Under the pieces are notes generated by a model that worked only from the letters and a program-made list of their open reading frames with translations, searched no databases and was not told the DNA's origin. 48,269 nucleotides of DNA from assembly GCA_021803345.1 (NCBI GenBank), contig JAJZLS010000060.1, forward strand, positions 1-48,269, written 5' to 3'. The stretch comes from Actinomycetes bacterium (GTDB taxonomy: Bacteria; Actinomycetota; Acidimicrobiia; Acidimicrobiales; Acidimicrobiaceae). Positions 6,747 through 31,590 of this stretch are shown here, one piece after another; position 1 is the first letter of the stretch, and each line of letters opens with the position of its first letter. The position numbers and the translations under genes are program-made.

Positions 6747-6810
6747 AGCCTGAAGTATGCAGATATTTATATAAATAAAAGGATATTTGCCGCGGCAATT
6801 GGAATTTGAA

Positions 6811-6874
6811 TCTGGACTTTTTGGCGAAAAAGTGATTTTTTATCTCGCTTTGGACCAAAAAGTCCAGATTTTGT
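6811..6874 (+). terminator. Probable terminator after ilvD (14-bp perfect inverted repeat)
   Basis: TCTGGACTTTTTGG (6811-6824) is perfectly complementary to CCAAAAAGTCCAGA (6855-6868). Inner pairing is also possible (GCGA...TCGC, AAAAA...TTTTT). A short T-rich stretch (6869-6872) follows. It is best read as an intrinsic terminator for ilvD. The 30-base loop and short U-run make it weaker than a textbook case, so a processing or protective stem is possible. Confidence 0.55.
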
Positions 6875-6897
6875 AAATGAATTTGTAGAAAATGCTC

Positions 6898-6903
6898 TAT
6901 TGT
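6898..6903 (+). promoter_or_regulatory. Possible -10 box of the ilvBNC leader transcript
   Basis: TATTGT lies 8 bases before the leader-peptide ATG (6912), which fits a leaderless leader peptide as seen for leuA. No good -35 is found at 16-18 bases upstream, so the call is tentative. Confidence 0.3.
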
Positions 6904-6911
6904 TTAACTCA

Positions 6912-6947
6912 ATGAGCAGAAGTCTTTTAGTAGTAGTAATCGAATAG
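6912..6947 (+). CDS. ilvBNC leader peptide (MSRSLLVVVIE)
   Basis: An 11-codon reading frame, ATG to TAG, encodes MSRSLLVVVIE: two Leu, three consecutive Val (all GTA) and one Ile in six successive codons. These are the three end products of the pathway encoded just downstream. Its stop codon is immediately followed by the 5' arm of a stem-loop and then an intrinsic terminator. This is the classic layout of ribosome-mediated transcription attenuation, and similar leader peptides precede ilvB in other actinobacteria. No Shine-Dalgarno sequence is seen. A 7-codon frame (ATG at 6892) ends in an ATGA overlap with this start, so coupling is another option. Confidence 0.75.
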   Translation: MSRSLLVVVIE

Positions 6948-6974
6948 CGCACGACGGGATAAAACATCGTGCGC
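6947..6974 (+). promoter_or_regulatory. ilvBNC attenuator: protector stem (1:2) and alternative antiterminator arm
   Basis: GCGCACGA (6947-6954) pairs with TCGTGCGC (6967-6974), 8 perfect pairs starting at the last base of the leader stop. An alternative, mutually exclusive pairing joins CGACGGGA (6952-6959) with TCCC-A-GTCG (6984-6992), 8 pairs with one bulged A. This would consume the 5' arm and loop of the terminator. A ribosome stalled at the Val codons would block the first stem and leave the second free. A ribosome at the stop codon would cover the antiterminator arm. The pairings are seen in the sequence; the switching is inferred. Confidence 0.6.
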
Positions 6975-6980
6975 TTGTTG

Positions 6981-7003
6981 GCCTCCCAGTCGGGAGGCTT
7001 TTT
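6981..7003 (+). terminator. ilvBNC attenuator terminator
   Basis: GCCTCCC (6981-6987), a 4-base loop and GGGAGGC (6992-6998) form a perfect 7-bp GC-rich stem followed by five Ts (6999-7003). It lies 20 bases before the ilvB start, upstream of the gene it would silence, so it must be conditional. Confidence 0.85.
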
Positions 7004-7023
7004 AGTTTGTCCGGGAGTATGAA

Positions 7024-8736
7024 ATGAAGCTAACTGGGGCACAGGCACTCATAAAGAGTTTGGAAATGCAGGGTGTTGACGTGATGTTTGGTCTGCCGGG
7101 CGGTGCGATACTGCCTGTATATGACCCGATCATCGATTCGCCAATAAGGCACATCCTGGTTCGGCACGAACAGGGTGCCGGTCATATGGCGGAGGGATAT
7201 GCGCAGGCAACGGGGAGGCCGGGTGTGGCTATGGTAACCTCTGGGCCAGCCGCAACCAATATTGTCACCCCTCTGGCGGATGCTTATATGGATTCGGTCC
7301 CTATAGTGGTGATCACCGGGCAGGTTGCAACTAGTGCGATTGGAACTGACGCCTTCCAGGAAGCTGATATTACTGGAATCTCAATGAGCGTGACCAAGCA
7401 CAACTGGTTGGTCACCGACGCAAAAGACATTCCCCAGATAGTTGCGGAAGCCTTCCATGTGGCCACTACTGGTCGTCCTGGCCCGGTGCTGATTGACTTT
7501 CCAAAAGATGTGGCGACTTCGCAAATGGATTGGTACTGGCCTGAATCCGTTGATCTCCCGGGTTACCACCCAAATCTAAAGGGCCATACCAAGATGGTGG
7601 GTACCGCGGCAAAAATGATCTTAGAGGCCAAAAGGCCGGTTTTTTATGTTGGAGGCGGGGTCCTAAAGGCCCATGCCTCAGAGGCCCTTATGAATTTGGT
7701 GGAGCTGACCGGCATACCCGTTGTGACCACGCTTATGGCCCGAGGGGCATTTCCTGATGATCACCCACTGTGTTTGGGTATGCCGGGGATGCACGGAAAC
7801 TATACCGCGGTCACAGCAATGCAGAAGTCAGACCTGCTTATCGCCCTTGGTAGCCGATTTGACGATCGGGTTACCGGCAAGGTGAGTGGTTTTGCTCCTG
7901 ATGCAAAGATTATACATGTGGACATAGATCCGGCTGAGCTGGGCAAGGTGCGGCGTCCTGATGTTCCTATCGTTGGCGATGTCAGAATTGTAATAGAGGA
8001 CATCATCAAAGCGATAACGGCAGATTCGGAGACGTATCAACGAAAGGAAGATATTAGCCAGTGGATTCAAACCTTAAAGGAATGGCAGGAGAAGTATCCG
8101 CTTCGCTATAGCAATGCATCTGAAAATGGTGCCTTGAAGCCTCAGTATGTTATCGAATCACTCAGAGATCTGGCTCCAAATGACACCATAGTCACATCTG
8201 GAGTTGGACAGCATCAGATGTGGGCTTCACAGTATTGGAAGTTCAATTTCCCTTATACCTGGATAAATTCGGGAGGGCTGGGAACGATGGGATTTTCGAT
8301 CCCGGCTGCAATTGGCGCCAAGGTGGGCAAGCCGGATAAGACGGTTTGGGCAATTGACGGGGACGGCTGTTTCCAGATGACAGCTCAGGAACTCGTTACT
8401 GCGTCCATAGAGCGGATTCCGATCAAGGTTGCTTTGCTGAACAACTCCTACCTTGGTATGGTCCGTCAATGGCAGGAGATGTTTTATGATGAGCGTTATT
8501 CGGAGGTATATCTTTCGCCTGATCTTCCGGATTATGTTAAATGGTCGGAAGCAATGGGATGCGCTGCTTTCAGAGTTGACAATATGGAGGACGTGGGTCC
8601 CACAATCGAAAAGGCGAATCAGATCAACGACCGTCCTGTTGTGATCGAATTCAGAACCGACTCCAGTGAAAAAGTATTTCCCATGGTTCCCGCCGGAGCG
8701 AGTAACGACGATATTATTGTGGGACCAGAAAGCTAG
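7024..8736 (+). CDS. ilvB: Acetolactate synthase large (catalytic) subunit
   Basis: A 570-residue TPP enzyme that condenses pyruvate with pyruvate or 2-oxobutyrate, the first shared step of branched-chain synthesis. The N-terminal [13 protein letters not shown] and the catalytic Glu in [15 protein letters not shown] are present. The central FAD-binding segment includes [13 protein letters not shown]. The TPP-Mg motif [12 protein letters not shown]...[12 protein letters not shown] is at about 440-480. A GGGAG ribosome site precedes ATG 7024. It is the first structural gene behind the Leu/Val/Ile leader, 7 bases before ilvN. Confidence 0.97.
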
Positions 8737-8743
8737 GTAAGAA

Positions 8744-9328
8744 ATGAGTATTTCCTATATTCCCGGCAATGGTTCATCGCCGGACTATATAAATGACGGC
8801 AAGACAATAAATCACCATGTCCTTTCGGTTTTGGTGGAAAACAAGGCTGGGGTATTGGCCAGAATTGCACAACTGTTTTCGAGGCGCGGTTACAACATCT
8901 TTTCATTGGCTGTCGCACCGACTGACGATAGCCGGTTTTCACGGATTACGATTGTTGTCGACGTAGATTCTGTACCATTGGAGCAGATAACAAAGCAGCT
9001 TCATAAGTTGATCAACGTGATCAAGATAGCTGAATTGGACCCAGCCGAGTCAGTCGAGTGTGAACTGCTGGTTGCAACCGTAAATGCAGATATAACCGCA
9101 AGAGGTCATGTAATGGAGCTGGTGGCTCTGTTTGACGGAAAGATTATAGATGTTGGAACGGACAAATTGACCGTGCTGGTGACCGGGGAGCCGAGTCGCA
9201 TCGACGATTTTTCAGAGCTTTTGTCAAGCTTTGGAATCGTAGAGCTGCAAAGAACCGGTAGGGTGGCGCTTGCTAAGCTTGAGCGTCAGTCAAGTAAATT
9301 GAAAAACACGATTGGGAGGGTTGGCTGA
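8744..9328 (+). CDS. ilvN: Acetolactate synthase small (regulatory) subunit
   Basis: A 194-residue regulatory subunit that activates IlvB and confers feedback inhibition, normally by valine. The N-terminal ACT domain is clear ([20 protein letters not shown], then [26 protein letters not shown]). A C-terminal domain follows, with [21 protein letters not shown]. The N-terminus is about 20 residues longer than in many IlvN proteins ([19 protein letters not shown] before the ACT domain). An AGGTAAG ribosome site overlaps the ilvB stop. The stop lies one base before the ilvC start, so the operon is tightly packed. Confidence 0.95.
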
Positions 9329-9329
9329 A

Positions 9330-10355
9330 ATGGCCACTATGTACTATGAGGCAGATGCTGATGCCTCTCTGCTTGAAGGTAAGAAAGTCGCCGTTATCGG
9401 CTATGGATCTCAGGGCCATGCTCATGCGCTAAATTTGGCAGATTCCGGAGTCAATGTGGTAGTGGGGCTAAAGGAAGGTTCCAGTTCCAGAGCCAAAGCG
9501 GAGAGCGCCGGGCTCAAAGTTGCTAGCGTAGCCGAAGCTACAAGTGGAGCGGATTTGGTAATGATTCTTACTCCAGATACTGCCCAGCCCGCCATCTATG
9601 AGAAAGAGATTGCTCCAAATCTTAAAGACGGTGCTGCACTTGCTTTTGCTCACGGGTTCAACATCCGATATGAGCAGATCAAGCCATCATCTGCAGTCGA
9701 TGTGATCATGATCGCACCCAAGGGACCCGGGCACCTTCTTCGCAGAACCTACGCCGAAGGTGGTGGTATTCCTTCTTTGATAGCCGTCGCTCAGGATGCT
9801 ACCGGCAAAGCAAAAGCAGTCGCTTTGGCCTATGCGCACGCAATAGGCTCCACCAAGGCAGGCGTTCTTGAGACTACGTTTGCCGAGGAAACGGAAACTG
9901 ATCTGTTTGGAGAGCAGGTGGTCCTTTGCGGAGGCCTGGCTGCCCTGGTAACGGCTGGTTATGAGACCCTGGTGCGCAATGGCTATCAGCCTGAGTCTGC
10001 CTATTTTGAATGCCTTCACGAGCTCAAATTGATTGTGGACTTGATCTATGAGAACGGTCTTTCAGGAATGTGGTTCTCGGTTTCAGAGACAGCTGAATGG
10101 GGAGGCCTTGTCACCGGTCCAAGGATTGTAAACGATGGCGTCAAGGCAGAGATGCAAAAAGTTCTGGATGAGATTCGCAACGGTAAATTCGCAACTGAAT
10201 GGGTTGCTGAAAACAAAAACGGTCAACCCAAATTCAATCAGTTGCGCAAGGAATCTGCAGAGCATCCTATCGAAGCCGTCGGCGCAGAGCTGCGCGCGAT
10301 GATGCCGTTTATGGCGTCGGGACGTCCGGGTCTCAAAGACGTTTCTGGCGGCTGA
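9330..10355 (+). CDS. ilvC: Ketol-acid reductoisomerase, class I
   Basis: A 341-residue KARI that isomerises and reduces acetolactate or acetohydroxybutyrate with NADPH. The Rossmann motif [21 protein letters not shown] and the class I knotted C-terminal domain are visible ([21 protein letters not shown], then [17 protein letters not shown]). The length is that of the short class I form. ATG 9330 is chosen because GGGAGGG (9314-9320) sits at a suitable distance; an upstream TTG in frame lies before that site. The stop overlaps the next start (TGATG at 10353-10357). Confidence 0.96.
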
Positions 10356-11929
10356 TGACAAATGCCATCGGCGTTGACGCACTTGCAGATCTAAGCAAGG
10401 CGCGTCGACGCCATTTTGTTGAAAAAATAGACATTATCAACGCGATATATAAAGCTTATATCGTAGGGGCTGCCCTTTTGATCGCAGGTTCATTCCTAGT
10501 GGGGCTGGTCCAGTCTGCTCCCCTGGGATCCTCGGCACAGAAGGCACTCGTCAGTGATGGTCCTTTATACGTCGGACTGTTATTTGGCCTGGCAATTTTT
10601 CTTGGCTTGCGATCTGGCTCCAGAGGGGGCCCGCTGGCACTTCAAGGTGCGGACGTTAGAATGATCTTGCTCTCAGGGGTGCCAAGGTCAAAATTTCTCC
10701 GTTCCAAGGCGCTTTCCCAGGTCAGATCGATGGCGCTTCCTACCCTTTTGATTGGAGGCTTGATCGGTGGGGTAGCCCACCGGGCGCTTCAGGCCGGCAC
10801 ACTTCCTCTGGTCGTGGAAGGGGCCCTGGTTGCGTTTTTTCTTTCTTTGGTTTTATTCGGAAGCGGCTATCTTGCCTCCGGGCTAAGGCTCAACAAGTGG
10901 TTGGCATCGCTCGTAGGATTGATTATTCTGCTGGTGCCGGTATATGGAATCTGGAAGGACAGTTTGCTATTCCCCGGAGCTTGGCTCGGGGAGGTCTTTT
11001 TTAACCAATCTAAAGTTTCCAGCTCAGTGATAGCTGGCGCAATTTCTTTAGTAATTTTTGTTTTTGGACTTTACTTTATTGACCGTCTCTCGCTGGAAAT
11101 GTTGGAGAGACGGGCCAGATTAGTTGGCACCCTGCGCTTTGCCGCTACAACCCGCGACATCAGAACTGTTATTCTTCTTAGGCGGCAATTGTCAGGAGAG
11201 CGGCCTAGGAGCGGGAAGACATTTCTGAGCAATCTGAATATCGGGAACGGCATGACTGCAGCAGTTGTCAGGCGGGCCATAGCTTCGATTGAAAGGTGGC
11301 CAGTCGAGAGATATATAAGATTCTTTGTGCTGGCCATAGTGGCTGGAGTGTCAGCACGGATGACGTGGTCCGGAAGCTTCCTGCCGCTTGGGGTGGCGAT
11401 TGTGGCGCTTTTTGTAGCGGCTACCGACCTTTTGGAGCCGCTATCGCAGTTGGCTGATCGACCCGAGGCGGTGTCAGGAATCGGGGTGAAGGTTTCTAAA
11501 GTCGAAAGCCGTCTTTTGTTGGTTCCAATTATCGGAATGATAATTTTTGTTCTTATCGGCACGTTGGCAACCGTTTTTTTCAGTGGATTCGGAGTTTCTC
11601 TTCATATCGGGTTGATTTCTGCGGTTCCAATAGCTGCAACCTCCACCACCGGAGCAGCGGTAGCGATATTGAAGAAGCAGGGGTCTGCCACTACTTCGGT
11701 TTTAATGCCGGAAGTTGTTGCTCTTACGTCGGTGATTGTGGAAATTATCCCTTTTGTTATTGTGGCATGTGGGTTTGTTCCCCTAGTGGATAGTTATAAC
11801 CTTCATTCATACAATACGGGGTTGATTGATGTTACGGCAATTTCGGCTGCGTCATTTTCACTGCTCATCCCGCTGGGTGCATGGACATGGATAAGACGGC
11901 GGAATGAATTTTCTCCAAGCAAGCTTTAG
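10355..11929 (+). CDS. Multi-spanning membrane protein, ABC transporter permease component
   Basis: A 524-residue protein with about 12 hydrophobic segments, the first near 34-52 and the last near 490-515. Basic loops sit between them, for example GADVRMILLSGVPRSKFLRSKALSQVRS after segment 2, which resembles loops of actinobacterial ABC-2-like permeases. I do not recognise the family precisely. The start overlaps the ilvC stop, and an ATPase gene with its own strong ribosome site follows 13 bases later, which supports its reading as the membrane part of an ABC transporter. The cargo is unknown. Coupling to ilvC would place it under the Leu/Val/Ile attenuator, so a link to branched-chain amino acids is conceivable but unproven. 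Confidence 0.7.
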   Translation: MTNAIGVDALADLSKARRRHFVEKIDIINAIYKAYIVGAALLIAGSFLVGLVQSAPLGSSAQKALVSDGPLYVGLLFGLAIFLGLRSGSRGGPLALQGADVRMILLSGVPRSKFLRSKALSQVRSMALPTLLIGGLIGGVAHRALQAGTLPLVVEGALVAFFLSLVLFGSGYLASGLRLNKWLASLVGLIILLVPVYGIWKDSLLFPGAWLGEVFFNQSKVSSSVIAGAISLVIFVFGLYFIDRLSLEMLERRARLVGTLRFAATTRDIRTVILLRRQLSGERPRSGKTFLSNLNIGNGMTAAVVRRAIASIERWPVERYIRFFVLAIVAGVSARMTWSGSFLPLGVAIVALFVAATDLLEPLSQLADRPEAVSGIGVKVSKVESRLLLVPIIGMIIFVLIGTLATVFFSGFGVSLHIGLISAVPIAATSTTGAAVAILKKQGSATTSVLMPEVVALTSVIVEIIPFVIVACGFVPLVDSYNLHSYNTGLIDVTAISAASFSLLIPLGAWTWIRRRNEFSPSKL

Positions 11930-11942
11930 TCAAGGAGTTTTT

Positions 11943-12623: not shown

Positions 12624-12704
12624 TTTTTGTTTGGGGTGAAATATCTTCCCCGATTTCTCGCAGTGCGGTCCCTATTGGTTGTAGCCTAAAGATAAGGAGT
12701 CATA

Positions 12705-12746
12705 TTGGCCCCTCGGTCTTTAAGTGAATCCAAAAGGGGCCGTTAA
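12705..12746 (+). CDS. Short upstream reading frame coupled to the next gene
   Basis: A 13-codon frame beginning TTG (12705) has a strong AAGGAG ribosome site at 12694-12699, 5 bases upstream. It encodes MAPRSLSESKRGR and ends with TAA overlapping the next ATG (TAATG, 12744-12748). It spans a stem formed by GGCCCCT (12707-12713) and AGGGGCC (12735-12741), which holds the only ribosome-site-like sequence (AGGGG) of the following gene. Translation of the short frame would open the stem. Its existence as a translated unit is inferred. Confidence 0.4.
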   Translation: MAPRSLSESKRGR

Positions 12747-15323: not shown

Positions 15324-16868
15324 CTAGGGGCCGACTTCGCTATTTCGGGCTTCTTTCCTGGCCATTGACCGAATCAAGCGGTTTACGGCGTTGACATATG
15401 CTCGGGCGGAGGCTTCCACGACGTCTGTGGAAACACCACGACCTGATACTTTATAATCTCCGGATTCAAGACTTATGACCACTTCACCCTGTGCGTCTTC
15501 TCCGCCGGTTACCGAAGATACAGTAAAGCCAACTAGTTTCGCCTCAATTCCGGCTATTTGCTGGATGGCTTTCCCGGCAGCATCAATCATCCCGTTACCA
15601 TCTGATTTGACTTCGAATCTCTGTCCGTCTTTGGCAATTACGACTCTGGCATTTGGTGTCCCTACGGTTCCGCCAGCTACTTCCAGCTCGACTAGAGAGT
15701 AAAGGTTTCCAGCTTCGGTGCTGATCTCATCGGCAACCAAAGCCTCCAGATCCGCTTCTGTGATTTCACGCTTTCGATCTGCCAACTCTTTGAACCTGAA
15801 GAATGCCTGGTTGAGGGCCTCTCCCTGAATTTCATACCCCATATTTTTCAGTGATTCACTAAAGGCATGTCTGCCGGAATGCTTTCCCAGGACTATCTGG
15901 GATCCCTTTTGCCCCACACTTTCCGCATCAATAATTTCATAGGTTTCGCGGTCAGCAAGTACCCCATGCTGGTGTATTCCTGACTCATGCGTGAAAGCGT
16001 TCTTTCCCACTACGGCTTTGTTGTATTGGACCGGGTATCCGGTAAGGCGTGAGACGAGCCTGGATGTTCTTGCCAGCTCCTCAGTCCTGATCTGTGTCTC
16101 AAGTCCCGAAAACTGATCAGGTCGAATCTTTACTGCCATTACCACTTCTTCGAGTGCGGCATTTCCCGCTCTTTCACCGAGTCCGTTGACACACACCTCG
16201 ATTTGTCGGGCCCCGGCTTGAACCCCAGCCAGAGAGTTGGCACTTGCCAGTCCGAGATCGTTATGGCAGTGGGTTGAAATGATGTAGTCACCTTTTATTT
16301 GGGATTTGACATACTGTATCAGTGCTCCGAAGTCCCAGGGTATTCCGTAGCCTACTGTATCGGGTATGTTCAGTGTTGTGGCTCCAGCGTCAACCGCAGC
16401 CTGTAAAACCTCCAGCATGAATTCAAGCGGGGTTCTGGTTGCGTCCTGAGGAGAAAATTCCACATCTTCGGTGTGTTGGCGTGCTCGTTCCACCCCTTGT
16501 TTTGTCTCTCGAAGTACCTGCTCCGGAGTCATCTTCAGCATATGCTGCATGTGGGATGGGCTGGTTGAAATAAACACGTGGATTCTTGCCTGTTCGGCAT
16601 CCTTTAAGGCATCCCAGCATCGGTCTACATCGCTGAGGTGAGTACGGGAAAGCCCGGCTATTATCGGCCCATGAACGGTCCTGGCAATCGTCTGCACGGC
16701 ATCAAAGTCACCTTGGGACGCTACCGGAAATCCTGCTTCTATGTAATCTACATTTAGTCGGGCGAGCTGCTCTGCTATTTCAAGTTTTTCTGCGACGTCA
16801 AGGGAAATACCTGGTGACTGTTCTCCGTCTCTCAGAGTTGTGTCGAAAATAATTAATTTTTCGCCCAT
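15324..16868 (-). CDS. leuA: 2-isopropylmalate synthase
   Basis: A 514-residue LeuA of the bacterial type 1 group, condensing acetyl-CoA with 2-oxoisovalerate as the first step of leucine synthesis. IIFDTTLRDGEQSPG carries the metal and substrate residues; ISTHCHNDLGLASANSLAG has the HxH metal ligands; EVCVNGLGERAGNAALEEV follows, then GKHSGRHAF. The C-terminal 130 residues form the LeuA regulatory domain (VGTPNARVVI...). An AAAGGAAAG site precedes ATG 16868. Upstream lies an attenuator with a leucine-rich leader peptide. Confidence 0.97.
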   Translation of the reverse strand: MGEKLIIFDTTLRDGEQSPGISLDVAEKLEIAEQLARLNVDYIEAGFPVASQGDFDAVQTIARTVHGPIIAGLSRTHLSDVDRCWDALKDAEQARIHVFISTSPSHMQHMLKMTPEQVLRETKQGVERARQHTEDVEFSPQDATRTPLEFMLEVLQAAVDAGATTLNIPDTVGYGIPWDFGALIQYVKSQIKGDYIISTHCHNDLGLASANSLAGVQAGARQIEVCVNGLGERAGNAALEEVVMAVKIRPDQFSGLETQIRTEELARTSRLVSRLTGYPVQYNKAVVGKNAFTHESGIHQHGVLADRETYEIIDAESVGQKGSQIVLGKHSGRHAFSESLKNMGYEIQGEALNQAFFRFKELADRKREITEADLEALVADEISTEAGNLYSLVELEVAGGTVGTPNARVVIAKDGQRFEVKSDGNGMIDAAGKAIQQIAGIEAKLVGFTVSSVTGGEDAQGEVVISLESGDYKVSGRGVSTDVVEASARAYVNAVNRLIRSMARKEARNSEVGP

Positions 16869-16937: not shown

Positions 16938-16970
16938 AAAAAACCTCCTGGCTTTTAGGCACAGGAGGTT
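16938..16970 (-). terminator. leuA attenuator terminator
   Basis: On the minus strand, AACCTCCTG (16970-16962), an 11-base loop and CAGGAGGTT (16950-16942) form a perfect 9-bp stem that runs into TTTTTT (16943-16938). It lies about 70 bases before the leuA start and so must be conditional. Confidence 0.88.
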
Positions 16971-16971
16971 T

Positions 16972-16994
16972 TGCGAGCGTACGGAGCGCTCGCA
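16972..16994 (-). promoter_or_regulatory. leuA attenuator upstream stem-loop
   Basis: TGCGAGCG (16994-16987, minus strand) and CGCTCGCA (16979-16972) pair perfectly around a 7-base loop. The stem begins one base after the leader stop codon and ends one base before the terminator stem, as in leader-peptide attenuators. I could not find a convincing antiterminator pairing by eye. Confidence 0.65.
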
Positions 16995-16995: not shown

Positions 16996-17034
16996 CTATC
17001 CAAGAAGGAGAACAAATGCAAAGACTTTATGCAT
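16996..17034 (-). CDS. leuA leader peptide (MHKVFAFVLLLG)
   Basis: The minus strand from ATG 17034 to TAG 16996 encodes MHKVFAFVLLLG, with three consecutive Leu codons (CTC CTT CTT) placed 4 to 2 codons before the stop, preceded by Val. An in-frame ATG at 17043 would add three residues (MYA). The start at 17034 falls 8 bases after the -10 box, so the transcript would begin at its A and be leaderless. The arrangement leader peptide, stem, terminator, leuA is that of leucine-responsive transcription attenuation, known for leuA in other actinobacteria. Confidence 0.8.
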   Translation of the reverse strand: MHKVFAFVLLLG

Positions 17035-17041: not shown

Positions 17042-17071
17042 ATAATCACCTATCTTAGATTGAAATGTCAA
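17042..17071 (-). promoter_or_regulatory. leuA promoter
   Basis: On the minus strand, a consensus -35 TTGACA (17071-17066), 18 bases, and -10 GATTAT (17047-17042). The predicted +1 at about 17034-17036 coincides with the leader-peptide ATG. The flanking CTTGACATT is shared with the leuB promoter. Confidence 0.7.
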
Positions 17072-17150: not shown

Positions 17151-18056
17151 TCAAATAACTTTCACTTCAACTGTGTCCATTTTGAGTCTGTTTTTGATGA
17201 TTTCCACTGCTATCGGATTTTTTTCCACCGCGATGAATCTGCGGCCCATTTTTTGGGCAACTGCGGCAGTAGTTCCGCTGCCTGCAAAGAAATCCAGTAC
17301 CCATGAGTCTGGCTGAGACGATGCCTCGATGATCCTTTTTAAAATTGCTTCAGGTTTCTGGGTTGGATATCCGGTTCGTTCTTTTCCGGTGGTGTGGACG
17401 ATGGTTTGCCACCATACATCCGTGGGGACCTTTCCAAGCGCTGCTTTTTCTTTGCTTACCAGGTTTGGGGCCATATAGGGGATTCGCTCAATTTGAGAAT
17501 AGTTGAAGATATGCTGTCCAAGCTGTTTGGCGTACACCAGAATGGTGTCGTGCTTTGCGGGCCATTTTTGCTTAGAGCGACCGCCGTAGTCGTATGCCCA
17601 GATAATTTCGTTCATGAAGTTATCTCTTCCAAATATTGAATCTAAGGCCACCTTGACATAATGGACTTCCCGGTAATCGAGGTGTAGGTAAAGTGTTCCA
17701 CGACCGCTAAGTAAACGGTGACATTGTTCGAGTTTTGGAAGCAGGAATCCCAAATAGTCGTCAAACGAATCGTCGTACGAATGGGAAGACACCAATGTGG
17801 TGCGGTATTTTCTTCCGCCAAATCCGATTCTGGTCGCATCGTTATCTCTCTCAGTGCGGAGCGATGAAAGTTTTTGTATGTTCCCGGTATTAAACGGGGG
17901 GTCAATATAGATCAGATCGATGCTGTCACCAGGCAGTCTGGATAATACTGATTCTGCATCTCCGTGAATAAGTAGGTCATTAGAGGCAATGAAGTTTATT
18001 TCAACCAAGGTGGCAGGTCCGCTCGTCTGTGCGCTTTCCTTGGATACCGAATCCAT
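17151..18056 (-). CDS. DNA methyltransferase, N6-adenine/N4-cytosine type, orphan
   Basis: A 301-residue AdoMet-dependent DNA methyltransferase of the PF01555 kind. The catalytic motif IV, DLIYIDPPFNTG, comes early (about residue 45-55). The AdoMet motif I, VLDFFAGSGTTAAVAQKMGRRFIAVE, is near the C-terminus. This order marks the beta-type. TGYPTQKPEAILKRII lies between them. Start ATG 18056 is chosen for the AGGTGAT site 8 bases upstream; a GTG at 18065 is possible. No restriction nuclease or specificity subunit lies nearby; the neighbours are serA and leuA. It is therefore a likely solitary methylase. Its recognition sequence cannot be predicted. Confidence 0.88.
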   Translation of the reverse strand: MDSVSKESAQTSGPATLVEINFIASNDLLIHGDAESVLSRLPGDSIDLIYIDPPFNTGNIQKLSSLRTERDNDATRIGFGGRKYRTTLVSSHSYDDSFDDYLGFLLPKLEQCHRLLSGRGTLYLHLDYREVHYVKVALDSIFGRDNFMNEIIWAYDYGGRSKQKWPAKHDTILVYAKQLGQHIFNYSQIERIPYMAPNLVSKEKAALGKVPTDVWWQTIVHTTGKERTGYPTQKPEAILKRIIEASSQPDSWVLDFFAGSGTTAAVAQKMGRRFIAVEKNPIAVEIIKNRLKMDTVEVKVI

Positions 18057-18147
18057 ATTTATCACCTGTCATTATCGCCGATTGTCCTCATGGCATGATA
18101 GCAGTTAGCAACTGAATTAGAGTTTATGGGAACAAAACGCAAAATAT

Positions 18148-24633: not shown

Positions 24634-24644
24634 GCAATTTAGTT

Positions 24645-25022: not shown

Positions 25023-25032
25023 TTGTTAACTA

Positions 25033-25070: not shown

Positions 25071-25099
25071 TTACATGTCTTGTTTGGCAGCCAATTTGC

Positions 25100-25693
25100 T
25101 TAGGACAGTGACGGCAGCCAGGTAGGACGCTCTGATTCAAAAGAACTTATGTCCTTTTCATATCTAAGCGATATGCCAATATCGTCCAGCCCTTCAAGTA
25201 GTCGAAACTGGGTGAAATCATCAATCGGGAAGATGGCGACGAGCCCAATGGATGGAACTGAGACTGTCTTGCTGCTTATATCGATCACTATTTCGGTCTT
25301 TGGATCTTTGAGAACCGCCTCACTGATTGCATCCACGTCTTGTTGACTCAGGACTACTGGAACCAGTCCAGCCTTGGTGGAATTGTTGCGGAATATATCT
25401 CCGAACCGTGGTGAAATAACTGCTTCAAATCCGTAATCAGTTAGAGCCCAAACCGCGTGCTCCCTGGAGGATCCGGTTCCGAAATTTGGCCCGGCAACGA
25501 TGATGTTTGCATCCTCGTAGGCTGGGTTATTTAGTACAAAGTTCGGATCTTCCCGCCATTGGGAAAACAGTCCTGCCCCAAATCCGGTTCTCTCTACCTT
25601 TTTTAGCCATTCGGAGGGAATAATCTGGTCGGTGTCGACATCGCTTCGGCCAAGCGGTAAAGCGGTACCTTTAATTTGTTTTATCGGTTGCAT
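25100..25693 (-). CDS. leuD: 3-isopropylmalate dehydratase small subunit
   Basis: A 197-residue swivel-domain subunit of isopropylmalate isomerase. PLGRSDVDTDQIIPSEWLKKVERTGFG and GPNFGTGSSREHAVWALTDYGFEAVISPRFGDIFRNNSTKAGLVPV are typical of bacterial LeuD. It acts with LeuC in leucine synthesis and, in the citramalate route, also isomerises citramalate to 3-methylmalate. An AAAGGA site precedes ATG 25693. It follows leuC after 24 bases. Confidence 0.96.
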   Translation of the reverse strand: MQPIKQIKGTALPLGRSDVDTDQIIPSEWLKKVERTGFGAGLFSQWREDPNFVLNNPAYEDANIIVAGPNFGTGSSREHAVWALTDYGFEAVISPRFGDIFRNNSTKAGLVPVVLSQQDVDAISEAVLKDPKTEIVIDISSKTVSVPSIGLVAIFPIDDFTQFRLLEGLDDIGISLRYEKDISSFESERPTWLPSLS

Positions 25694-25717
25694 AAATAGT
25701 TCCTTTCTTGGTCGAAT

Positions 25718-27115
25718 TTAGATCTGATCTGGAGTCGCAAAGTGGCCTGCCACTGCTGTTGCAGCTGCTACTGCGGGGGAAACCAAGTGGGTCCTCCCAC
25801 CTTTCCCCTGGCGCCCTTCGAAGTTCCGGTTTGAGGTGGATGCAGCCCTTTGCCCGGGAGAGAGATGATCGGGGTTCATCCCGAGACACATCGAACAACC
25901 GGCTTCTCGCCATTCGAAGCCTGCCTCTAAAAAGATCTTGTCCAGACCTTCAGCTTCAGCTTGAGCCTTTACTTTTTGAGAACCAGGTACCACTAAAGCT
26001 CTTATTCCTGGTGCTACCCGCTTTCCTTTGACCACGCCTGATGCCAGTCTCAAATCTTCGATTCGGGAATTGGTGCAGGAGCCAATAAAGACGGTGTCAA
26101 CTGATATTTCTGTAATCGGAGTACCGGCCGCAAGTCCCATGTAACTCAGAGCACGTGCAGCCGCCTCGCGCTGGGACGGTTCTAGGAAACTTTCCGGATC
26201 TGGGACTGAACCTGAAATTGGCACCACTTGGGAAGGATTTGTTCCCCATGATACATACGGAGATAACGTTGATGCATCTATCACAACCTCTTTGTCGAAC
26301 TGTGCGTCAGGATCAGTTGACAGTGACTTCCAATACTCTACTGCTTTGTCCCAGTCAGCTCCCTTTGGAGCATGAGGGCGTCCCTTTATGTACTCGAAAG
26401 TAATCTCATCCGGTGCTATCATCCCGGCCCTGGCGCCGGCCTCAATACTCATATTGCAGATTGTCATGCGACCTTCCATGGAAAGCGATCGGATCGCCGT
26501 ACCCCGGTATTCGATTACGTAGCCGATCCCGCCTCCGGTGCCAATTTCCCCTATTATTGCGAGGATGATGTCTTTAGCGGTGACGCCCGGGGGGATTTCT
26601 CCCTCTACCGTGACGGCCATGGTTCCAGGCCTGAGTTGCGGAAGGGTCTGAGTGGCTAGGACATGTTCGACTTCGGATGTTCCGATGCCAAATGCCAGGG
26701 CACCCAAAGCGCCATGAGTAGCAGTATGGCTGTCGCCGCACACAATTGTCATCCCTGGAAGGGATAGTCCTTGTTCGGGACCTATTACGTGGACAATGCC
26801 CTGGTTTTTGTCGCCCATGGGATAAAGAGTTATTCCGAATTCTTTACAATTTGTTGCAAGCACGTCAAGCTGCTTGGCTGAAATTGGATCGGATACCGGC
26901 TTGTCAATGTCGGTGGTTGGCACGTTGTGATCTGCGGTTGCAATTGTAAGATCAGGTCTTCTGACCTTTCTATTTGCCATTCGAAGACCATCAAATGCCT
27001 GTGCAGAAGTTACTTCATGAACAAGGTGAAGATCGATGTAGAGAAGTTCCGGCTCGTTTTCGCCCTTATGAGCTACGTGTGCGTCCCAAACTTTTTCGCT
27101 AAGAGTTTTGCCCAT
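25718..27115 (-). CDS. leuC: 3-isopropylmalate dehydratase large subunit
   Basis: A 465-residue aconitase-family enzyme. [22 protein letters not shown]-like active-site sequence is present ([14 protein letters not shown]). The iron-sulfur cysteines are in FIGSCTNSR and [29 protein letters not shown] closes the active site. It is full length. In this window it should serve both the leucine and the citramalate-based isoleucine branches. Upstream 27116-27313 was examined for a leader peptide and terminator; none was convincing. A TATAAG-like -10 on the minus strand near 27220 is the best promoter candidate. Confidence 0.97.
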
Positions 27116-27313
27116 TCCTGACCCCGTCTATTCGGTGATTAAGTTTCCGGTAATCCTATTCGTACTTGGTATTGGCTGGATAGGGTTCCGCCGGATAAAC
27201 AAGAATAAGAATAACTTATACCGGTATTGAAATCATAGTCGAAAACATCGATTGTTTAATGCTTCAAGTGCTTGACCTCAGGCCCAACGGATGGGTGACG
27301 GAATGGCTTGGCC

Positions 27314-27778
27314 CTAGCCGACTTTTACGATCTCCACCCTTAGCACTCCACCTGGAGACTCGTACTCGACAACCTGTCCCTCTGTTTTACCCAAAATCGC
27401 CTGGCCAAGTGGTGATGCGGGAGAGATTACCGAAACACCTGGACGTTTTTCTTCGATGGATCCAATCAGATATTGTTCGAGTTCGTCGTCGCCATCGTAG
27501 CGAAGATGAACGATGGAACCCGTGGTCACGGTCTCAGATTGTTCCTCTTCCTCAACTATTTCCGCAGATGATAAAAGAGCCTGAATTTGGCGTATTCGAG
27601 CCTCCATTTTTCCTTGGGTGTCTTTGGCCGCGTGATAGTCGCCATTTTCTTTTAGGTCGCCCAGTGCCCTTGCGGCCTCGATTGCTGCAGCAATTTCAAT
27701 CCTGCCTCTTGTAGTGAGGTCTTGCAGCTCTTCTTGTAATCGTTGATATGTTTGACGAGTTAGTTTTGTTTCGGTCAC
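27314..27778 (-). CDS. greA: Transcription elongation factor GreA
   Basis: A 154-residue GreA. The N-terminal coiled coil (TRQTYQRLQEELQDLTTRGRIEIAAAIEAARALGDLKENGDYHAAKD) carries the acidic tip DLKENGDY that enters the polymerase secondary channel and stimulates transcript cleavage. The C-terminal FKBP-like domain follows (VSVISPASPLGQAILGKTEGQVVEYE). The start is GTG 27778. TACTTT (27791-27786 on the minus strand) lies 7 bases upstream, so the message is probably leaderless. Its placement beside attenuated operons is interesting but not evidence of a link. Confidence 0.95.
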   Translation of the reverse strand: MTETKLTRQTYQRLQEELQDLTTRGRIEIAAAIEAARALGDLKENGDYHAAKDTQGKMEARIRQIQALLSSAEIVEEEEQSETVTTGSIVHLRYDGDDELEQYLIGSIEEKRPGVSVISPASPLGQAILGKTEGQVVEYESPGGVLRVEIVKVG

Positions 27779-27857
27779 GTATTACAAAGTAGTAGCTAAG
27801 ATTTATTTTGTAACTGTTGAATGGCTATGCATTGGTTTCAAAAATCGTTAAAACTAC

Positions 27858-27885
27858 TTGACATTGGGTATTTTAGACATAAAAT
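27858..27885 (+). promoter_or_regulatory. leuB-ilvE-cimA promoter
   Basis: A consensus -35 TTGACA (27858-27863), 16 bases, and -10 TAAAAT (27880-27885). The predicted start at about 27892-27896 falls at the leader-peptide TTG. CTTGACATT is shared with the leuA promoter. Confidence 0.75.
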
Positions 27886-27894
27886 TGTTTGGCT

Positions 27895-27939
27895 TTGAAT
27901 AAAAAAATAACATCTCCGCACAACGTAATTATTATCTGA
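27895..27939 (+). CDS. leuB-ilvE-cimA leader peptide, Ile-rich (ends NVIII)
   Basis: From TTG 27895 to TGA 27937-27939 the frame encodes (M)NKKITSPHNVIII. A Val codon and three successive Ile codons (GTA ATT ATT ATC) stand directly before the stop. An in-frame TTG at 27889 would add two residues. There is no ATG and no ribosome site, so initiation would be leaderless from the promoter just upstream. The stop codon overlaps the first base of a stem-loop, and an intrinsic terminator follows. Ile-specific control fits an operon containing citramalate synthase, the committed step of isoleucine synthesis here. The weak point is the TTG start. Confidence 0.62.
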   Translation: MNKKITSPHNVIII

Positions 27940-27962
27940 GCTCACGCGTATAGGTGTGAGCT
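27939..27962 (+). promoter_or_regulatory. leuB attenuator upstream stem-loop and alternative pairing
   Basis: AGCTCAC (27939-27945) pairs with GTGAGCT (27956-27962), extendable inward by a wobble and a G-C pair. The loop-side GGTG (27953-27956) can alternatively pair with CACC (27975-27978), with two more pairs beyond a bulge. This would disrupt the terminator 5' arm. The set matches the 1:2, 2:3, 3:4 layout of attenuators. Confidence 0.55.
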
Positions 27963-27968
27963 ATTTCG

Positions 27969-27994
27969 ACCGGCCACCATGTGGGCGGTTTTTT
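27969..27994 (+). terminator. leuB-ilvE-cimA attenuator terminator
   Basis: ACCGGCCAC (27969-27977), loop CAT, and GTGGGCGGT (27981-27989) form a 9-position stem with one G-G mismatch, leading into six Ts (27989-27994). It lies 34 bases before leuB, so it must be conditional. Confidence 0.8.
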
Positions 27995-28028
27995 GTTTGT
28001 TATACGGTTCTGATCTGCGAGGTTTGAA

Positions 28029-29048
28029 GTGGCAAAATATAAAGTCGGTATCATCGGCGGGGACGGAATTGGTCCAGAGGTGATTGACGAGACGCTGAAG
28101 GTAATTAAGGCTACTGGGATCGAATTGGATACCGTCAGCTACGATTTGGGAGCCGACCGCTACCTGCGCACCGGAGACGTCTTGCCGGATGCGACTTTAG
28201 AAGAGATCCGTGGACTGGACGCGGTTCTCCTCGGGGCAGTAGGGCCACCGGTTGGGTCTACTGCTGTGCCTTCTGGGATTCTCGAGCGGGGTTTGCTATT
28301 AAAACTCCGTTTTGAACTTGATCTTTTTATCAATCTTCGTCCTTTTATAACCCCCAAAGGTTGGAACCGGTTCAATATTGAACCAGTTGATATGGTGGTA
28401 ATCAGAGAGAATACCGAAGGCACCTACGCCGGTGAGGGCGGGCAGCTACGACGAGGGACGCCCTATGAGATTGCCACCCAGGGTTCTGTTAATACCAGAT
28501 TTGGAGTGGAGAGGACAGTCAGATTTGCCTTTGAGCTAGCTGCCTCGAGACCCAGAAAGCATTTGACTTTGGTGCATAAGACAAATGTGCTCACCTTTTC
28601 TGGTGATCTTTGGCAGAGGACATTTAACGAGGTAAGCAAGGAGTATCCCAGCGTTGAGATTGCCTACAACCACGTCGACGCAGCGTGTATTTATATGGTT
28701 GAATCGCCGAGCCGCTATGACGTGATCGTCACAGACAATTTATTTGGAGACATTCTTACAGACCTTTGCGGCGCGGTTTCAGGAGGAATTGGCCTTGCTG
28801 CATCGGCGAACTTAAATCCCAACCGAACCGGACCCTCGCTGTTTGAGCCGGTACACGGTGCTGCTCACGACATCGTTGGCACTGGAAAGGCAAATCCATT
28901 GGCGGCAATCCGTTCAGGAGCGCTGATGCTTGACTTCTTAGGGGAAAAAGAAGCAGCCGGGAAGATCAACAAAGTTTTGGAAGAGTTTGAAGTTCCAGCC
29001 GGGGCCACCACAGCTTCCATTGGTAACGCGATTGCCGAGAGGGTGTAA
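28029..29048 (+). CDS. leuB: 3-isopropylmalate dehydrogenase
   Basis: A 339-residue beta-decarboxylating dehydrogenase. GIIGGDGIGPEVIDE opens the protein; VVIRENTEGTYAGEGG and HKTNVLTFSGDLWQRTF carry substrate residues; VTDNLFGDILTDLCGAVSGGIGLAASANLNP is the metal-binding part; EPVHGAAHDIVGTGKANP follows. It oxidises 3-isopropylmalate for leucine. In an operon with cimA it probably also oxidises 3-methylmalate to 2-oxobutyrate for isoleucine. The start is GTG 28029, preceded by GCGAGG. ilvE follows after 3 bases. Confidence 0.95.
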   Translation: MAKYKVGIIGGDGIGPEVIDETLKVIKATGIELDTVSYDLGADRYLRTGDVLPDATLEEIRGLDAVLLGAVGPPVGSTAVPSGILERGLLLKLRFELDLFINLRPFITPKGWNRFNIEPVDMVVIRENTEGTYAGEGGQLRRGTPYEIATQGSVNTRFGVERTVRFAFELAASRPRKHLTLVHKTNVLTFSGDLWQRTFNEVSKEYPSVEIAYNHVDAACIYMVESPSRYDVIVTDNLFGDILTDLCGAVSGGIGLAASANLNPNRTGPSLFEPVHGAAHDIVGTGKANPLAAIRSGALMLDFLGEKEAAGKINKVLEEFEVPAGATTASIGNAIAERV

Positions 29049-29051
29049 AAG

Positions 29052-29975
29052 ATGCCGATTACTGAGACCGAAAAAATTTGGATGAATGGCGAGATGGTTC
29101 CGTGGCAGGATGCCAAAATTCACGTACTTACTCATGGTCTTCATTATGGGTCCGGAGTCTTTGAAGGCATCCGGGCCTATGAGACAGACAGGGGTCCGGC
29201 AATCTTCCGTCTGGAGGATCATATAAGGCGGCTGTTTAGTTCTGCCAAGATATTCATGATGGACATCCCCTTTTCCCAGGATCAGGTGATCGAAGCTTCA
29301 AAGAGTGTGGTTCGGGAAAACAATCTTGAAAGCTGTTACATGCGGCCAATTGTGTATTTGGGCTACGGGGAAATGGGGCTCAATCCACTTGCCTGCGAGG
29401 TATCAGTTGCCATTGCGGCATGGCCTTGGGGAGCGTATCTTGGCGATGAAGGCATGAAGAATGGGATTCGTCTAAAGATATCTTCTTGGCAGCGTCATCA
29501 CCCAAATGCAATGCCACCAGCCGCTAAAGGCACAGGAATGTATATGAACTCGTCGATGGCTAAGGTGGAGGCGGTAAAGGCCGGTTATGATGAGGCTGTG
29601 CTTATGTCAGCACAGGGTTTCGTATCCGAATGTACGGGTGAGAATTTATTTGTCGTGCGGAACGGGGTTCTGCTCACCCCGCCTACCTCAGCTGGTGCTT
29701 TGGAAGGGATAACCCAGTCATCGGTTATTCGCATAGCTAAGGATCTCGGTTACGAGGTTGGAGTAGAGAACCTGCTTCGAAGTGACTTGTACACAGCTGA
29801 CGAAATATTCTTATGCGGGACAGCGGCTGAAGTGGTTCCGGTCTCCTCTGTGGACGATCGAGTCACGGGGGAGGGCAAGCCCGGTGAGATGACCAAGGCG
29901 ATTCAGTCGATGTACCAGGAGGCGGTGAGAGGCCGAGTGGATCGTTATAAGGATTGGATCACCTATGTCGGCTGA
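29052..29975 (+). CDS. ilvE: Branched-chain amino acid aminotransferase
   Basis: A 307-residue class IV PLP aminotransferase performing the last step of Val, Leu and Ile synthesis. IWMNGEMVPWQDAKIHVLTHGLHYGSGVFEGIRAYET is the typical start. YLGYGEMGLNP and KGTGMYMNSSMAKVEAVKAGYDEAVLM include the PLP lysine. GFVSECTGENLFVV and FLCGTAAEVVPV complete the fold. It lies between leuB and cimA in one transcript. Its last 11 bases overlap the cimA start. Confidence 0.96.
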   Translation: MPITETEKIWMNGEMVPWQDAKIHVLTHGLHYGSGVFEGIRAYETDRGPAIFRLEDHIRRLFSSAKIFMMDIPFSQDQVIEASKSVVRENNLESCYMRPIVYLGYGEMGLNPLACEVSVAIAAWPWGAYLGDEGMKNGIRLKISSWQRHHPNAMPPAAKGTGMYMNSSMAKVEAVKAGYDEAVLMSAQGFVSECTGENLFVVRNGVLLTPPTSAGALEGITQSSVIRIAKDLGYEVGVENLLRSDLYTADEIFLCGTAAEVVPVSSVDDRVTGEGKPGEMTKAIQSMYQEAVRGRVDRYKDWITYVG

Positions 29976-31590
29976 ACATGTTCCCAATCTTCCCAAAAGT
30001 GTAGACATTTACGATACTACCCTTAGAGATGGATCGCAACAAGCTGGTCTGTCGCTTAGTGTAGATGACAAACTAAGGGTTGCCACACAGCTCGATAGTT
30101 TGGGTGTTTCCTACATCGAAGGTGGTTGGCCTGGGGCAAATCCCAAGGATGAAGAGTTTTTTAGGCGGGCTCCAGATGAACTTAAGCTGTCCACTGCCAA
30201 GTTGGTGGCCTTCGGCTCGACTCGAAGGGCTAATGCCAGGGCCGATCAAGACGCTACCTTGAAATCTTTGGTTGATGCAGGGACCGATTATGTGTGCCTG
30301 GTAGGTAAGTCCTGGGACTACCACGTGGAAAAAGCCCTGAGAACCACTCTCAAAGAGGGTGTACTTATGGTGTCGGATTCGATTCAATTCATGAAGTCGC
30401 AGGGAATCAAAGTGTTTCTGGACGCGGAGCATTTTTTCGATGGATATAAATCGAATCCTAAATTTACCAGGGATGTACTGCTCGCTGCTCAGGACAGTGG
30501 TGCCGAGGTACTGGTCTTGTGCGACACCAATGGTGGAACTTTGCCATTTGAAGTCGAGAATATAGTAGACAGGATAAGTTCAGATTTTTCCGCTCAAATT
30601 GGGGTGCACTTCCACAATGATTCCGGTTGTGCGGTGGCAAATGCACTGGCTGCGGTTAGCGTGGGTGCGACTCAGGTTCAAGGGTGTGTGAACGGTTACG
30701 GGGAGAGGACCGGAAATGCAGATCTCTCAGTGGCTATTCCAAATCTTACGCTGAAAATGGGTATTGAAACGGTTCCTCGGGAGCGGATTGAACTTATAAC
30801 AGCAGTTTCGCGCCATGTTGCGGAAATAGTCAACATAAGTCTCGATCCACAAAAGCCGTATGTGGGAAATTACGCCTTTACCCATAAGGCGGGTTTGCAT
30901 GTCAGCGCTATAGCCAGGAGAAAAGACGCATATGAGCATATATCTCCGGAAGAGGTCGGCAACGGGACAAAGTTCGTAGTTTCTGAAATGGCAGGCAAGT
31001 CGACGCTTGCCATCAAGGCAAGTGAGCTCGGACTTCAGCTTGATTCGGATGAGCTTTCCAATGTGCTTGAGCATCTCAAGGAGCTGGAGCACAGAGGCTA
31101 CCACTTTGAGGCCGCGGATGGTTCTTTGGAATTATTGATGAGAAGGGCGAGTGGTTGGGAGCAGCAGTTCTTCACCTTGGAATCCTTCAGGGTGATAACT
31201 GATCACCGTGAAGGATTTGGAGCGGTTACCGAGGCAACGGTGAAGGTTGTGGTCGATGGAAGCAGGATGATTGCCACTTCAGAGGGAAACGGACCTGTAA
31301 ACGCTCTTGACGCGGCATTGCGCAAAGCACTGGCCCCATATTTCGAAGAGCTCTCAAAGGTGCACTTGACTGACTTCAGGGTCAGGGTGCTTGATTCCTC
31401 CCTTGGCAGTGGAGCAGTGGTCCGGGTGCTGTTGGATTCTTCTGACGGCAATGACACCTGGTCCACCATGGGCGTGTCTGAAAATATTATTGATGCATCG
31501 TGGCAGGCGTTGATAGATTCTATTGTCATGGGTCTTATAAAGATTTCCGCTGGCAAAGACGGTCACGCAAAATCGCCAGTGGTCGATTAA
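29965..31590 (+). CDS. cimA: (R)-Citramalate synthase
   Basis: A 541-residue member of the LeuA/CimA superfamily. VDIYDTTLRDGSQQAGLSLSVDDKL, YIEGGWPGANPKDEEFF, VFLDAEHFFDGYKSNP and VGVHFHNDSGCAVANALAAV-like sequence (IGVHFHNDSGCAVAN) are those of the CimA group rather than LeuA. The EGGWPGxNPKD segment in particular is diagnostic. The C-terminal allosteric domain is present. It condenses acetyl-CoA with pyruvate to citramalate, opening the threonine-independent route to 2-oxobutyrate and isoleucine. No ilvA is present in the window, in keeping with this. The ATG overlaps the end of ilvE. Isoleucine feedback is usual in the family. Confidence 0.93.
   Translation: MSAEHVPNLPKSVDIYDTTLRDGSQQAGLSLSVDDKLRVATQLDSLGVSYIEGGWPGANPKDEEFFRRAPDELKLSTAKLVAFGSTRRANARADQDATLKSLVDAGTDYVCLVGKSWDYHVEKALRTTLKEGVLMVSDSIQFMKSQGIKVFLDAEHFFDGYKSNPKFTRDVLLAAQDSGAEVLVLCDTNGGTLPFEVENIVDRISSDFSAQIGVHFHNDSGCAVANALAAVSVGATQVQGCVNGYGERTGNADLSVAIPNLTLKMGIETVPRERIELITAVSRHVAEIVNISLDPQKPYVGNYAFTHKAGLHVSAIARRKDAYEHISPEEVGNGTKFVVSEMAGKSTLAIKASELGLQLDSDELSNVLEHLKELEHRGYHFEAADGSLELLMRRASGWEQQFFTLESFRVITDHREGFGAVTEATVKVVVDGSRMIATSEGNGPVNALDAALRKALAPYFEELSKVHLTDFRVRVLDSSLGSGAVVRVLLDSSDGNDTWSTMGVSENIIDASWQALIDSIVMGLIKISAGKDGHAKSPVVD

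Follow-up and report, generated by a model that had tools for sequence, protein, structure and literature searches.

Candidate branch-specific attenuators before three branched-chain amino acid operons of Acidimicrobiia, including an isoleucine leader upstream of leuB-ilvE-cimA

The trp, leu and ilv attenuators of Escherichia coli sense charged tRNA through leader codons, carry a terminator before the first gene and operate by strand exchange (pairings 1:2, 2:3 and 3:4), the 2:3 hairpin of trp responding to the position of the ribosome. The same logic probably applies in a 48,269-nucleotide stretch of a bacterium of the Acidimicrobiaceae (assembly GCA_021803345.1, contig JAJZLS010000060.1, positions 1 to 48,269; hereafter the window), where short leader open reading frames (ORFs) ending in branched-chain codons precede ilvBNC, leuA and leuB-ilvE-cimA, whereas the strand exchange of the E. 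coli systems was not found. Leaders of this kind are known in Actinobacteria. A 2005 study described leaders before ilvB that have a terminator and leaders before leuA that lack one (PMC1262725), leaderless leaders stand before leuA, ilvB and other genes of Streptomyces lividans (PMC8079986), and mutation of the LVVI upstream ORF (uORF) of Mycobacterium tuberculosis ilvB1 shows that its codons matter, which provides an experimental precedent (PMC13236596). With the Corynebacterium ilvB-II leader (PMC10272879), which together with the M. tuberculosis uORF comes nearest to what is seen here, these reports bear out the statement in a preliminary description of the window that attenuation of ilv and leu genes is known in some actinobacteria.

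The ilvB leader of the window resembles these actinobacterial ilvB leaders in having a uORF rich in branched-chain codons, followed by hairpins and, ahead of ilvB, a terminator with a U-tract (PMC10272879, PMC13236596, PMC8079986). The leaders described here also use GUA, the regulatory codon set in bold for M. tuberculosis ilvB1 (PMC13236596), and S. lividans IlvL is leaderless (PMC8079986), like the start proposed below. In Corynebacterium ilvB-II, however, the uORF spans most of the first hairpin (P1) and an antiterminator using the 3′ shoulder of the terminator was proposed (PMC10272879), whereas here the stop codon marks the start of hairpin 1 and a pairing of that sort is not conserved. 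Similarly, leuA is preceded by a leader ORF with a Leu run, as in the LEU element or leuL (PMC1262725) and in LeuL1 of S. lividans, which is leaderless (PMC8079986). LEU elements have no terminator and pair their Leu codons with the leuA Shine-Dalgarno sequence (PMC1262725), while the leuA leaders studied here depart from that description: a terminator-like hairpin is present in 43/43, and an in-register search, in which Shine-Dalgarno pairing was not separately examined, found no conserved leader helix. A LEU-like pairing between the Leu codons and AGGAGG in the leuA terminator was also tried and rejected (mean z 0.14, no signal).

Gene identities in the window were checked with NCBIfam profiles. 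The three operons and the parts of their leaders, the hairpins and candidate terminators being assigned by folding and alignment, are the following.

6912..6947, forward strand: ilvB leader ORF MSRSLLVVVIE, TAG stop at 6945-6947, control codons CTT TTA GTA GTA GTA ATC, kept in relatives
6946..6975, forward strand: hairpin 1 of the ilvB leader, AGCGCACGA / TCGTGCGCT, with its 5′ foot on the stop codon
6980..7003, forward strand: candidate ilvB attenuator terminator, GGCCTCCC/GGGAGGCT and U-run
7024..10355, forward strand: ilvB-ilvN-ilvC operon (NCBIfam)
16996..17034, reverse strand: leuA leader ORF MHKVFAFVLLLG, TAG stop, control codons CTC CTT CTT, kept in relatives
16972..16994, reverse strand: hairpin 1 of the leuA leader, TGCGAGCG / CGCTCGCA
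16938..16971, reverse strand: candidate leuA attenuator terminator, ACCTCCTG/CAGGAGGT and U-run
15324..16868, reverse strand: leuA, 2-isopropylmalate synthase (NCBIfam)
27895..27939, forward strand: leuB leader ORF MNKKITSPHNVIII, TTG start, TGA stop at 27937-27939, control codons GTA ATT ATT ATC, kept in relatives
27939..27962, forward strand: hairpin 1 of the leuB leader, AGCTCACGC / GTGTGAGCT
27968..27994, forward strand: candidate leuB attenuator terminator, ACCGgCCAC/GTGGgCGGT and U-run
28029..31590, forward strand: leuB-ilvE-cimA operon (NCBIfam)

The three ORFs encode 11-14 residues. The ilvB leader reads ATG AGC AGA AGT CTT TTA GTA GTA GTA ATC GAA TAG and the leuA leader ATG CAT AAA GTC TTT GCA TTT GTT CTC CTT CTT GGA TAG (17034-16996, reverse strand). 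The leuB leader ends in AAC GTA ATT ATT ATC TGA and contains no in-frame ATG; as in same-genus leaders, its start is a TTG (27895, or 27889). With this start corrected, the order of short ORF, stem-loop and terminator with U-run reported earlier for the three operons is confirmed. Folding from stop codon to terminator is more stable than in shuffled sequences (z of -4.2 for ilvB, -4.3 for leuA and -5.0 for leuB, with 0/200 shuffles as good), and folding of the whole leader gives z of -3.2 (ilvB), -4.1 (leuA) and a modest -2.0 (leuB; 9/200 shuffles as good).

Conservation was examined in 61 genomes, namely the genome of the window and 60 relatives. Ten of the 61 belong to the genus (own genome included), 27 to other genera of the family and 24 to other families within the order. 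A match to leuB was obtained in 61/61 (E<=0.001; only distantly in G021 and partially in G022, whose leuB was not used), leuA in 43/61 and ilvB in 58/61 (E<=1e-120), which gave upstream DNA for 59 leuB, 43 leuA and 58 ilvB genes. Codon runs were counted in ORF tails ahead of a stop located 40-300 nt upstream of the gene, leaving out leuB of G001 and ilvB of G007 (61 nt and 1 nt upstream), and were compared with shuffles and with the reverse strand. Runs of at least four Ile, Leu or Val codons occur before ilvB in 45/57 genomes (shuffle mean 2.0, maximum 6), LLL before leuA in 40/43 (mean 0.9, maximum 3), and before leuB, runs of at least four Ile or Val codons in 15/58 (mean 0.5, maximum 2) and III in 8/58 (mean 0.1, maximum 1); reverse-strand counts are 0 or 1. 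The runs are specific to the branch: four Ile or Val codons precede leuA in 0/43 and LLL precedes leuB in 1/58. Two further loci of the window served as controls.

5040-6746: ilvD (NCBIfam)
25100-27115, reverse strand: leuD-leuC (NCBIfam)

Runs of LLL, III, VVV, [IV]4 or [ILV]4 were found in 0/28 ilvD and 0/29 leuC upstreams, taking from the 30 loci of each gene those with at least 280 nt upstream. These counts uphold two further earlier claims, that codon content differs by branch and that ilvD and leuCD are without such leaders. Conservation of the leader codons in relatives had been set beforehand as one test of the proposal, and the codons are kept by branch, together with a bias among synonymous codons.

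A leader and terminator could be assigned by pattern in 53/58 ilvB, 43/43 leuA and 42/59 leuB upstreams, 5 of the 42 leuB terminators being placed by hand; the terminator pattern demands a T-rich tail, and where several leader stops fitted, one was picked by a branch-aware score. Mean residues in the last eight codons, figures that are partly circular through this scoring, are L 0.31, V 1.62 and I 2.12 for leuB, L 3.47, V 0.21 and I 0.28 for leuA, and L 1.92, V 2.58 and I 0.75 for ilvB. Among the ilvB loci, G010 has the terminator without the leader ORF, and G040, G047 and G060 were missed by the terminator pattern while showing terminator-like hairpins; a leader was proposed for G040 and for G060 but not for G047. 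In G012, of the same family as the window, all three leaders were assigned.

The synonymous bias was evaluated in 39 genomes, expected codon use being taken from the leuB, leuA and ilvB genes of the same genomes. GTA was observed 117 times (21.3 expected), ATT 63 times (25.2), CTT 73 times (37.1) and CTA 42 times (14.9). For eight GC-rich genomes that belong to other families, counts of 13 GTA, 6 ATT and 6 CTT compare with 0.2, 0.2 and 0.5 expected. Theory requires a sensitive attenuator to favor certain codons among synonyms, as well as codons that are generally little used (Elf and Ehrenberg 2005, PMC1183508).

The leuB element was also searched for without its codons, with a covariance model of 23 elements extending from stop codon to terminator and excluding the control codons. 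In the order, this model found a match in 141/298 genomes at E<=0.01 (126 at E<=0.001); the 141 include 19 genomes in the model and some false weak matches (at least G060, G334 and G375). Sixty loci were inspected (59 distinct, L382 being the same as L409), 40 strong and 20 mostly weak or odd. Ile occurs in the last eight codons in 40/40 strong non-training matches and in 9/80 of the other two frames, the choice of the stop by best Ile/Val score within about 20 nt favoring this outcome somewhat, and the LeuB motif GDGIG lies downstream in 39/40. The 20 weak or odd loci comprise 12 with an Ile tail, seven false matches that carry no leader (L365-L368, L371, L372 and L374; E 0.0018-0.0064) and L370 with an ilvB-type tail. 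In a sample of the phylum, the leuB leader was also found in G076, from another order of the same class. In other classes, no run of four was seen in 22 leuB upstreams (L168-L189, from 61 other-class genomes with a match), and in two of these upstreams a run of three occurs in ORFs that are not leader-like; within the sampling, four genera of family f7 were without the leuB leader.

Hairpin 1 starts within a few nucleotides of the stop codon in all three leader types. A covariation analysis, proposed earlier as a check, supports it in each type: double (compensatory) changes were seen at 9/15 consensus pairs for ilvB, 7 of them in hairpin 1 (28 sequences from 53 leaders), at 8/14 for leuB, 5 in hairpin 1 (23 sequences from 42 leaders), and at 14/20 for leuA, 9 in hairpin 1 (21 sequences from 43 leaders). 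In these alignments, hairpin 1 is maintained by compensatory change. The terminator cores are near-invariant, with two ilvB C-G pairs kept in 28/28 and four leuB pairs in 23/23 sequences, and less so for leuA; this conservation is partly by construction, as the search patterns fix part of the core. The low variation of the cores contrasts with the variable hairpin 1, a contrast for which the search pattern accounts in part and for which no partner in cis was found.

The predicted stability of the RNA between ribosome and terminator was then calculated with the edge of the ribosome set 13 nt downstream of the A-site codon start. When the ribosome stands on the stop codon, median energies are -0.8 (leuB), -0.4 (leuA) and -1.1 kcal/mol (ilvB); at the first control codon, they are -14.3, -16.3 and -17.8 kcal/mol, respectively. 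In this model, the stop-codon hairpin is the only element found to depend on ribosome position.

We consider it very probable that the three leaders act by ribosome-mediated, codon-specific transcription attenuation, each operon being tuned to its own branch. A ribosome trailing the polymerase would pass through a short ORF ending in runs of GTA, ATT/ATC or CTN codons, with Leu and Val (and Ile) codons for ilvBNC and its shared steps, Leu codons for leuA, and Val/Ile codons, chiefly Ile, for leuB-ilvE-cimA. When the amino acid is plentiful, the ribosome would reach the stop codon and melt hairpin 1, and the terminator would halt transcription; when it is scarce, the ribosome would stall a few codons upstream, hairpin 1 would stay folded and termination would decrease. 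From the computed features, that is, the ORFs, branch codons, codon bias, conserved hairpin and terminator, and ribosome-dependent hairpin, we infer that the leaders are translated, from a leaderless start, that the operons respond to amino acids and that hairpin 1 antagonizes the terminator. The attenuation reading rests on the codons, their bias, the stop-anchored hairpin and the terminator, and its coupling step is either non-textbook or was missed.

Several observations weigh against this reading. Thermodynamic folding of 137 leaders, pseudoknots being outside the model, revealed no conserved antiterminator sharing a terminator strand. A ribosome at the last control codon already partly covers hairpin 1 (medians of -6.6, -7.7 and -12.6 kcal/mol for leuB, leuA and ilvB). 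The codon bias is not simply for the rarest codon, ATA being avoided (4 observed, 17.9 expected); CTT is a common Leu codon anyway in the own genus (22 observed, 12.6 expected), and ATC exceeds ATT (59 to 32) in the 40 non-training leuB-type tails. The circularity of the tail compositions comes from the branch-aware scoring of stops and leaves the run counts and the leuC and ilvD controls untouched; the leuB tail assigned in G051 is without Ile. The leuB leader is patchy, being missing in family genera g5, g6 and g7 (nine genomes, e.g. G013, G014 and G015). Finally, the -35 boxes (4 of 6 matches, spacing 15-19) that accompany the -10 boxes discussed below are few (8 ilvB, 5 leuA and 2 leuB leaders), and altering leader codons in Streptomyces coelicolor is reported to have left ilvB unaffected and to have acted on leuA in an unclassical way (PMC1262725). 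The earlier proposal of ribosome-mediated attenuation by the three leaders stands as to conserved branch codons, bias, hairpin and terminator, while the classical antiterminator was not found.

The step that links hairpin 1 to the terminator admits different explanations. A classical trp/ilv-type attenuator, in which a stalled ribosome would release a strand able to pair with one terminator arm and whose antiterminator would have escaped detection as a pseudoknot or through being short or irregular, appears rather unlikely. Every other part fits it, the antiterminator proposed for C. ulcerans ilvB-II is formed by the P1 loop and the 3′ shoulder of P2 (PMC10272879), and in the ilvB leader of the window CGACGGGA of hairpin 1 could base-pair, leaving one bulge, with TCCCAGTCG in the terminator. 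This last pairing, however, is lost in other same-genus leaders such as that of sister species G003, and as a general strand swap it was rejected; a local alternative hairpin ATTGG-CCTC-CCAAT, present in some same-genus ilvB leaders, was unseen in other genera and likewise discarded. In folding, duplex and in-register searches of leader, hairpin and downstream DNA, neither arm of the terminator showed a conserved partner in the three leader sets. With masked folding, engagement of the 5′ arm of the terminator shifted toward antitermination by more than 0.3 between last control codon and stop in 0/41 leuB, 0/43 leuA and 1/53 ilvB leaders, and at the first control codon in 0 leuB, 2 leuA and 0 ilvB leaders. 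An in-register search, which misses helices of varying register and missed hairpin 1 too, found no other conserved helix. In joint folds, which tend to close gaps, hairpin 1 ends 0-6 nt before the terminator stem in 137/137 leaders; folded alone, its gap to the start of the terminator pattern is mostly 0-8 nt and once 22. Because of this short gap, we tentatively propose that hairpin 1 may act as an antiterminator that shares no strand with the terminator: it would sterically hinder closure of the adjoining terminator stem in the RNA exit channel until a ribosome reaching the stop codon clears this obstacle. If so, read-through would become constitutive when translation of the leader is blocked, contrary to what happens in the trp attenuator, and induction would be lost if the two hairpins were set apart by a spacer of about 15 nt.

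That the leaders act instead through Rho, mRNA decay or the initiation of translation, a mode proposed for the leuA LEU element in other Actinobacteria, seems improbable. In its favor, that element has no terminator, and the codon changes made in S. coelicolor left ilvB unaffected and influenced leuA in a manner unlike classical attenuation (PMC1262725). Against it, the T-tailed, terminator-like hairpin lies 23-205 nt upstream of where the gene match begins, mostly too far to mask the gene start. That the codon runs are chance hydrophobic ORFs beside ordinary terminators has a negligible likelihood. Short ORFs are common and the evidence of one genome would be weak, but as a general account this explanation is refuted by the shuffles, the leuC and ilvD controls and the non-training matches, and is contradicted also by the reverse strand and the codon bias.

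The start of the leader transcripts was examined next. Two promoter-like sequences were read in the window.

17042..17071, reverse strand: promoter-like TTGACA-18-GATTAT before the leuA leader, a consensus match whose -10 box ends 7 nt before the leader ATG
27858..27885, forward strand: promoter-like TTGACA-16-TAAAAT directly 5′ of the leuB leader

The consensus scan behind the leuA call found 10 matches where shuffles expect 15.4; similar TTGACA...TAAAAT/TACAAT sequences lie upstream of leuB in the genus. Sites resembling a -10 box and ending 5-11 nt before the ATG number 34 in 46 ilvB leaders (6.1 in shuffles), 18 in 32 leuA leaders (3.9) and 8 in 23 leuB leaders (2.9), and Shine-Dalgarno-like sites before the leaders are few (7/46, 1/32 and 3/23, respectively). 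On these two grounds, the leader ORFs are probably leaderless, with transcripts starting at or next to the start codon. Mycobacterial cysteine leaders have the start codon at or near the 5′ end of the transcript and no Shine-Dalgarno sequence, for a different amino acid. The same arrangement characterizes the leaderless leader-peptide attenuators of Streptomyces, whose genes and amino acids partly differ (PMC8079986). Between ilvD and the ilvB leader, positions 6810-6869 hold a perfect 15-bp inverted repeat (ATCTGGACTTTTTGG / CCAAAAAGTCCAGAT) with a short T-run; it is probably the ilvD terminator, in which case ilvBNC would require its own promoter.

Since LeuB also works in the citramalate pathway, it is reasonable that leuB-ilvE-cimA should be headed by Ile codons and not by Leu codons. 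cimA was matched in 57/61 genomes (E<=1e-90). Among the 24 genomes of other families, all 17 with a leuB leader have cimA on the same strand within 1.4 kb downstream of leuB. Of the seven without it, G042 has cimA 22 kb away and G054 and G057 have no cimA match; G052, G053 and G060 have cimA near leuB. In the g5, g6 and g7 genomes, leuB-cimA spacing is still about 0.95 kb despite the missing leader. The remaining genome, G040, carries an Ile leader (tail IASIIIIS), matched by the covariance model of the leuB element, directly before cimA instead of leuB (L364, G040:C96:15102-15152), a relocation of the leader from leuB to cimA. The threonine deaminase profile TIGR01127 had no match at E<=1e-60 in 10/10 genomes of the genus, own genome included (completeness 69-96%; weaker matches not displayed), and matched 28/61 genomes of the sample at that threshold, 12 above the curated cut-off. 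Citramalate is thus probably the route of the genus to isoleucine, and placing leuB under Ile codons would be sensible where LeuB takes part in citramalate-derived isoleucine synthesis and threonine deaminase appears to be missing.

With Rfam 15, covariance models found no leader family in the window at gathering score, only two tRNAs, and comparison with the leader alignments gave sub-threshold matches only. Each of the three leader models recovered its own leader in the own genome, these leaders being in the training sets; among the 150 first-look candidates scored per model (of 333 for R1, 231 for R3 and 459 for R2), the other matches at E<=1 were one overlapping on the reverse strand (R1, 0.33) and one on G000:C87 (R3, 0.90). 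Between serA and the leuA leader, 17151-18065 on the reverse strand holds an adenine-specific DNA methyltransferase-like gene whose best NCBIfam match is under its cut-off. Outside the window, the own genome encodes a second LeuC-like protein with 60% identity (G000:C82:55794-57176), and second LeuC-like copies are also present in G002, G008, G017, G026 and G038. By LeuB, the named records that match best are a metagenome-assembled genome (MAG) of the Acidimicrobiaceae (83%), an Actinomycetes MAG (76%) and Acidithrix ferrooxidans (74%).

The suggestion that such a set is little described holds for the leuB-ilvE-cimA leader and, in this class, for the terminator-bearing leuA leader, but not for ilvB and leuA leaders as such, which are known (PMC1262725, PMC8079986). 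In the open-licence literature, we found no leader or attenuator of leuB or cimA, nor a leader from Acidimicrobi- taxa, and the terminator-bearing leuA leader of Acidimicrobiia seems undescribed before. What appears new is the isoleucine leader of leuB/cimA and an architecture with no detectable antiterminator, the kind of leader itself being known. This architecture raises the question of whether a hairpin beside a terminator can control it with no strand exchange; if the steric reading is true, a single design would have been reused for three amino-acid specificities, its Ile version following cimA. If attenuation operates as proposed, members of an actinobacterial class would sense Leu, Val and Ile separately via three leaders built on a single plan, and the citramalate route to isoleucine would be among the pathways so controlled.

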